Of a stretch of 64,000 nucleotides of DNA, positions 48,059-49,099 are shown in pieces. The stretch's first letter is position 1, and every line of letters starts with the position of its first letter. The position numbers and the translations under genes are program-made. This stretch comes from Micromussa lordhowensis (lineage: Eukaryota; Cnidaria; Anthozoa; Scleractinia; Lobophylliidae), in the NCBI GenBank assembly GCA_964020085.1, contig OZ026607.1, positions 10,326,132 to 10,390,131 of the forward strand. Reading direction: 5' to 3'. The notes below the pieces were generated by a model. The model was not told where the DNA came from and did not search any database. It saw only the letters and a list, made by a program, of their open reading frames with translations.

Positions 48059-49099
48059 ATGAATAAAGAAACTATTGGCAATCTACATCGTAAAAAACTT
48101 TCAGAAATTGTTCTGAAAGAAAAAAAAATACCAGATATAAAAAGAAAAATTGTAAATTTATCCAACAAAAAAGATTATTCTAGAATTGATCAAATTGAAC
48201 AAATAAGGTTAGAAAATGAAATAAATGATATCAAAAATCTTCGTACTAGTTATTTATTAAAGAATGCTATTTTACTTTTTTTACATACAGAAAATCAAGC
48301 AAAAAATATAAACAAAAATTTTGTTTATGGTGTTGATATCTTAAAGAATAAGAATTATGATAAGATTGATCATAATTCTTATTATAAAAGGTATAAATAT
48401 AATATCTTTCCTGATGAACTCCAATACAGTGAAAATAATATAAATGAAGATAACTATTGTTATACATGTGAAAAATTTAAAGTATTTATCATCGATGAAG
48501 CAATAAGTACTTGTCTAAGTTGCGGAATAAGCATTAATGTCTCAACAAATCCAGAAAAACCATCTATAAAACCTGCAGAAAATGATTACAAAAGATATAC
48601 TCATTTTTGTGACTGTTTGGCCAATATCCAAGGCAAAGAAAGTTTTAAAGTGTCAGAAGAGGTTATTAATACCATTATCAGATAAATCGTTCATGAAAAA
48701 ATGGAAAATTCTTTGGAAAAGTTAACAGAAGCAGATATTAAAAGATATCTTAAAAAACATCGTAAATTACATTATTATAATCATACCACACAAATTTTGT
48801 ATCGAATAACAAAAATACCTCCATTACAAATGACTCCTATAATGGAAGAAAAAATGAAGATGAGGTTTTTACAAATTCAAGAGCCATTTGAAATTTTTAA
48901 AGGTAAAAATAGAAGCAATTTCTTTTCCTATTCATATATCATCTATAAATTTTGTCAAATACTTGGATATAATGAATTTTTACCAAAGCTAAAATTGTAT
49001 AAAGATCGTTTAAAACTCTATGAACATGATAAAATTTGGAATAAAATCTGTGAACATCTAGGTGGTGAGAGCGCTGGTTGGAAATTTATCAAGTCTTAA
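48059..49099 (+). pseudogene. Poxvirus late transcription factor 3 (VLTF3)-like gene
   Basis: Codons 1-208 give a basic helical N-terminal region and a zinc ribbon (CYTC at 134-137, CLSC at 152-155), then YKRYTHFCDCLANIQGKESF, a signature of the family. The frame stops at TAA 48683-48685 and continues in the same frame from 48701 to 49099 with a LTEADIKRYLKKHRKLHYY helix, a R.NFFSYSYIIYKFC segment and the closing GWKFIKS. VLTF3-like proteins drive late gene transcription in large DNA viruses. One stop splits the gene; two separate ORFs are possible but the family is normally one chain. Confidence 0.78.
48683..48685 (+). other. In-frame TAA splitting the VLTF3-like gene
   Basis: Both sides of the stop are in the same frame and both match different halves of the family. 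An ATG at 48701 could in principle restart translation. Confidence 0.7.

Follow-up and report, generated by a model that had tools for sequence, protein, structure and literature searches.

A VLTF3 homologue resides in a Polinton/adintovirus-like element family of the coral Micromussa lordhowensis

Giant viruses use VLTF3 to turn on late genes. What, then, is a VLTF3-like gene doing in a stretch of 64,000 nucleotides of the Micromussa lordhowensis genome (the window; C13:10326132–10390131 in our genome search), and does it belong to the small virus-like element around it or lie beside that element by chance? A sequence-only reading had proposed that it is a late transcription factor gene of a Polinton/adintovirus-like provirus, adjoining the gene for DNA polymerase B (polB) and serving a staged transcription programme with its own promoter-like blocks.

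A VLTF3 homologue in two pieces

Judged by its sequence, window 48059–49099 encodes a VLTF3 homologue on the + strand, in two pieces that share one reading frame and are split by a single in-frame TAA, a stop absent from the earlier note. The N-terminal piece (48059–48685, 208 aa), which ends in this TAA, comprises a coiled coil and a zinc ribbon, and the C-terminal piece (48701–49099, 132 aa) comprises the helical Pox_VLTF3 domain. The window copy is dead and could make only these two pieces.

Compared with the Pfam family Pox_VLTF3 (PF04947), the C-terminal piece matched strongly (E 7.4e-30, 104.3 bits, cut-off 25, profile positions 49–167 of 168), while the N-terminal piece matched slightly below the cut-off, by 0.7 bits (E 3e-5, 24.3 bits, positions 5–37); the profile similarity anticipated for both halves was thus clear for one and marginal for the other. 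The zinc ribbon (CYTC-14-CLSC, that is CxxC-14-CxxC, at residues 134–155 of the N-terminal piece) and the YKRYTHF..NIQGKE and GWKFI signatures were all there, as the sequence-only reading had said. All four cysteines, as well as YKR and GW.FI, were invariant in a 21-row family alignment, and each of the 21 members matched PF04947. The N-terminal piece has 34 database homologues, the six closest being 92–96% identical and 235–346 aa long, and a profile built from 11 of the 34 recovered 156 database proteins at E ≤ 0.01 (120 listed). Chance likeness to VLTF3 is ruled out by these E-values and by the 156 homologues. Against A2L_zn_ribbon the zinc ribbon gave weak matches in 10 of the 21 family members (best E 0.019), and against the zinc ribbon of TFIIB in 4 (best E 0.002).

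Fold comparison used a model of a relative, P0030, rather than of the window copy (pLDDT 77.5, pTM 0.47). Searching a viral fold library with this model gave 35 matches at E ≤ 0.001, 22 of them named VLTF3 or late transcription factor 3, 5 without a name and 8 otherwise named, including African swine fever virus (ASFV) B385R; an entomopoxvirus A2L homologue came next (E 9.5e-3). Whole-model TM was low, with an rmsd of 3.4–3.6 over 181–182 columns in two rows. P0030 is therefore predicted to share its fold with virus VLTF3s, several of the best matches coming from what we take to be Imitervirales-type viruses. Among 50 fold matches listed, 16 covered the C-terminal domain, comprising 15 RNA polymerase II or III initiation or initially transcribing complexes and one CAK–CDK2 complex, a weak hint of a TFIIB-like fold for the family; a factor of the TFIIB kind would pair a zinc ribbon with a cyclin-type core. 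Together, the profile matches on both pieces and the predicted fold of the relative bear out the assignment to VLTF3.

The surrounding element and its copies

The element runs from a scaffold gap at 35201–35400 to a right end at 49336, in agreement with the 14 kb given earlier, and its left end is lost in the 200-base gap. We placed the right end (..AATTACTTAACTACT, 49320–49336, + strand) where the similarity of other copies stops after like sequence. It lies 237 bases past VLTF3, which is the last gene. Subterminal 9-base tandem repeats like ACGCTAACT occur at 49190–49305 and 3′ of VLTF3 in five further copies (L021, L022, L025, L026 and L027), varying between copies, and in L026 an extra small open reading frame (ORF) apparently sits, by eye, between VLTF3 and the right end.

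Upstream of VLTF3, on the same strand, lies polB in two pieces, N-terminal (43769–46264) and C-terminal (46310–47875), which share a frame with one in-frame stop between them. The second piece carries DANNLYG, NSVFG and DTDS, recognized by eye and presumably the polB motifs of those names. Neither piece had a polymerase match in Pfam, and the second had no PDB sequence match. Further upstream (42178–43413, +), one ORF combines DUF5679 (PF18930, E 1.4e-5, below its cut-off), a phospholipase A2-like domain (PF08398, E 1.3e-10) and an rve integrase core (PF00665, E 1e-9, 39 bits, cut-off 32.6); a deletion may have created it by fusion. In the sister copy L068, matches to this ORF come in pieces. 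A small DUF5679 ORF (41897–42133, +; PF18930, E 4e-6) is 65% like the start of the larger one over 55 aa.

The remaining genes include a candidate adenovirus-type endoprotease (41183–41617, +; PF00770, E 0.0086, 16.2 bits, below the cut-off of 21.3) and two unknown genes retained in copies (40450–41160 and 39656–40378, both +). The candidate major capsid protein, of the double jelly roll type (38304–39569, +; PF21738, E 3.3e-4, 20.4 bits, below the cut-off of 27), has 1,399 homologues; it had no PDB sequence match, and its AF2 model (pLDDT 42.8) was too poor for use. Nine of the 120 listed clusters of these homologues hold more than 100 members each. From its position, we take the gene at 37129–37896 (+), seen in copies and lacking a relevant family match, as a candidate for the minor capsid protein. 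Beyond it lie an unknown gene with no family match of note (36039–37082, +) and, on the strand opposite to the other element genes, a packaging ATPase truncated by the scaffold gap (35405–35968, −; Pox_A32, PF04665, E 4.1e-14). Among the hallmarks of Polintons/Mavericks, the rve integrase (PF00665) and the A32/FtsK packaging ATPase (PF04665) were thus found; a protein-primed DNA polymerase B, a double jelly-roll capsid protein and an adenovirus-type protease, each with a candidate in the element, as well as terminal inverted repeats and a 6-base target duplication are also hallmarks of this group. A Pfam scan of 15 element ORFs turned up nothing resembling an RNA polymerase, and Rfam at gathering thresholds gave no match in the window.

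Outside the element, a fragment of another polB (27008–27214, −) is 45% identical to the element polB over 71 aa and adjoins ORFs at 27634–28829 that look, by eye, reverse-transcriptase-like. A diverged 87-base repeat array (28800–35150; 57 overlapping 300-base matches of one family) abuts the scaffold gap.

A search of the host genome (580.8 Mb, 1,383 contigs) gave 392 candidates for the VLTF3 family. At least 150 copies were scored, being the best-scoring candidates, with the window's own broken copy outside them; all 150 were above the cut-off, and 4 had a stop in the matched stretch, which is about half of the gene. The family was found in none of 14 control genomes. From the 150 we fetched 48, the top 8 and 40 picked down the list. 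A polB tail lay upstream of VLTF3 on the same strand in 47 of the 48, and 18 of 20 copies examined had a capsid match and its neighbours 7.5–11.5 kb upstream on the strand of VLTF3 (one match covering only 48 aa); of the two exceptions, one was all N and one had no match. Because of this repeated linkage, VLTF3 is a resident gene of the Polinton/adintovirus-like element, as had been claimed, and its homologues are not solely a host gene family unrelated to viruses.

Putative role, constraint and origin

We consider it probable that this is the last gene, at the right-hand end, of an integrated DNA virus of the Polinton/adintovirus type that carries its own VLTF3, with a putative part in late transcription. 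The protein would most likely act as an initiation factor, encoded by the virus and equipped with a zinc ribbon, that directs host RNA polymerase II to the AT-rich promoters of late genes. The host polymerase is the likely partner because the 15 element ORFs scanned include no RNA polymerase-like one. In a live relative, VLTF3 protein would be made once DNA replication begins. It would bind RNA polymerase through its zinc ribbon, and promoter DNA or a TBP-like partner through the helical domain at its C terminus, whereupon host RNA polymerase II would initiate in the AT-rich sequence directly 5′ of the start codons of the capsid, ATPase and protease genes.

In the 50 bases preceding each of 12 gene starts, AT content was 74–96%, against 68% for the element, so the promoter-like blocks survive as AT-rich stretches. 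As a common motif they found no support: the commonest upstream 7-, 8-, 9- and 10-mers were equalled in 60, 60, 6 and 39 of 60 shuffles, respectively, and even the best word, a 9-mer, did not stand clearly above shuffles. A staged transcription programme read from such blocks is therefore unsupported. Near gene ends there is a palindromic 17-mer, AGTAAAGGAACTTTACA, with perfect matches at 41597, 41616 and 43677 and an imperfect one at 39568. Allowing up to 3 mismatches, this block gave 5 matches (two being one site on both strands) against 0.54 expected, and it could be a promoter or terminator element.

Did the element family acquire VLTF3 from a giant virus? VLTF3 may instead be ancestral to both Polinton-like and giant viruses, an origin we regard as possible though doubtful. 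A quick tree with 91 rows and an arbitrary root at P0118, built without named reference rows, placed a window-like group of 6 rows inside a 20-row clade (SH-aLRT 97), on a long stem of 0.87. The other 14 clade rows come from JGI, Logan, ENA and NCBI, and the longest contigs of 12 of them span only 1.6–11.5 kb, which speaks for the ancestral origin; the other two, however, are on contigs of 52 and 146 kb and could be giant viruses. The presumed Imitervirales-type viruses among the best fold matches also count against shared ancestry. VLTF3 occurs in the adintovirus-like elements of Amoebidium too, according to the accessible text of PMC11244446, but a 2024 paper states, in the part available, that homologues of VLTF2 and VLTF3 are not detectable outside Nucleocytoviricota (PMC11253617). 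Further scans added no relatives: IMG/VR yielded no relative locus from the C-terminal VLTF3 piece, the family alignments or the capsid, and 19 loci by DNA pattern, none encoding a relative; GTDB genomes gave none, and PDB by sequence nothing relevant. A pairing of VLTF3 and capsid clusters by equal-sized contigs (771906; P0019, P0125) was one coincidence and was not relied on.

In 32 of the 48 fetched copies the gene reads open from Met over at least 300 aa, and the 16 without such a frame were left out of the pair comparison. These 32 represent 25 distinct DNA sequences; identical copies, in groups of 4, 3 and 3, occupy separate sites, most of them on different contigs. Among the 300 pairs, dS had a median of 0.091 and a maximum of 0.193, and the counted median dN/dS was 0.22 below a dS of 0.02 and 0.31–0.35 in the higher classes. 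Non-synonymous changes per synonymous change numbered 1.63 over all pairs, against 2.4–4.2 if neutral; with transition bias the neutral expectation is 2.4–2.75, and 12 disjoint nearest pairs showed 2.15. The VLTF3 element family has spread recently, and the substitution pattern indicates moderate constraint across its history but little after the most recent insertions, the pattern to be expected if copies derive from a replicating source.

VLTF3 might nevertheless be a passenger, degenerate or repurposed and not used for transcription, for example a DNA-binding protein directed at host chromatin or at giant viruses. The nearly neutral nearest pairs, the lack of a promoter motif and the long stem branch (0.87) to the window-like group fit such a fate, whereas the ribbon pattern CxxC..CxxC is retained in all 25 distinct open copies and core residues are invariant across a family 50–80% identical to P0030; we think this rather unlikely. 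That a giant virus (Nucleocytoviricota) insertion, or a lone captured gene, lies by chance beside a Polinton deserves almost no credence: available passages describe VLTF3 as a giant-virus marker in screening tools (PMC12638062) and an Exaiptasia VLTF3 that groups with asfarviruses and is isolated among animal genes (PMC5294986), but repeated linkage to polB and capsid refutes it for this family, and the element in the window stops 237 bases after VLTF3.

Nor does the locus resemble a GEVE, a long region with several giant-virus core genes, VLTF3 here belonging to a unit of some 14 kb that is repeated with polB and a capsid block. An abundant Polinton-like family carries VLTF3, so VLTF3 alone is no proof of giant-virus insertion, and the Exaiptasia gene reported among animal genes (PMC5294986, as far as its accessible text goes) deserves a recheck. 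We offer a wider scenario tentatively, as one that is possible though doubtful: a small animal Polinton-like lineage would use a virus-coded, TFIIB-like VLTF3 with host RNA polymerase II as its late switch, VLTF3 would predate giant viruses or have moved repeatedly between groups, and the VLTF3 genes recorded until now as ‘giant-virus’ in animal genomes would be these elements.

Comparison with known systems

The gene resembles VLTF3 of poxviruses and other Nucleocytoviricota (PF04947; vaccinia A2L, ASFV B385R) in its zinc ribbon and Pox_VLTF3 domain, but it is carried by a small element with no RNA polymerase gene found among 15 ORFs. The element offers a small system for asking how VLTF3 can act when the virus brings no RNA polymerase of its own.

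With animal Polintons, Mavericks and adintoviruses it shares an rve integrase and an A32-type ATPase, and it has candidates for their capsid, protease and polB. In the main texts, as available, of four papers on this group, ‘VLTF’ occurs 0 times (PMC11071308, PMC11071296, PMC10328495 and PMC10120064), and ‘transcription’ occurs 0 times in the accessible text of PMC8097293. In the portion available of PMC10120064, no animal capsids except the cnidarian ones fall outside the main cluster, and PMC11702301 has VLTF3, in its accessible text, only as a giant-virus search profile. Among the literature matches listed there was no description of VLTF3 in an animal Polinton or a 14 kb animal-type element.

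Mriyaviruses are likewise small (35–45 kb) viruses with VLTF3, but they also have VLTF2 and a RuvC resolvase, as given in the available text of PMC11253617. The chimeric Meld23486 joins an adintovirus-like polB and integrase to poxvirus-like genes; its poxvirus-like part is a capsid, and VLTF goes unmentioned in the accessible text (PMC11071296).

The closest parallel is in Amoebidium, a unicellular relative of animals. There, integrated elements combine VLTF3 with capsid proteins and an adintovirus-like polB, as in the coral, in the sections available of PMC11244446. The doubt voiced earlier about prior reports is partly resolved: VLTF3 in adintovirus-like elements is known, and a report from an animal Polinton was not found among the literature matches listed. 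The Amoebidium elements are about 30 kb long, carry a Dam methyltransferase and number 44 in the reference genome (PMC11244446, same sections), whereas the coral element is about 14 kb long, ends with VLTF3 at its right end and has at least 150 scored copies in 581 Mb. As far as the literature searched shows, the VLTF3-bearing kind is thus known from a relative of animals, and its compact, high-copy form is new.
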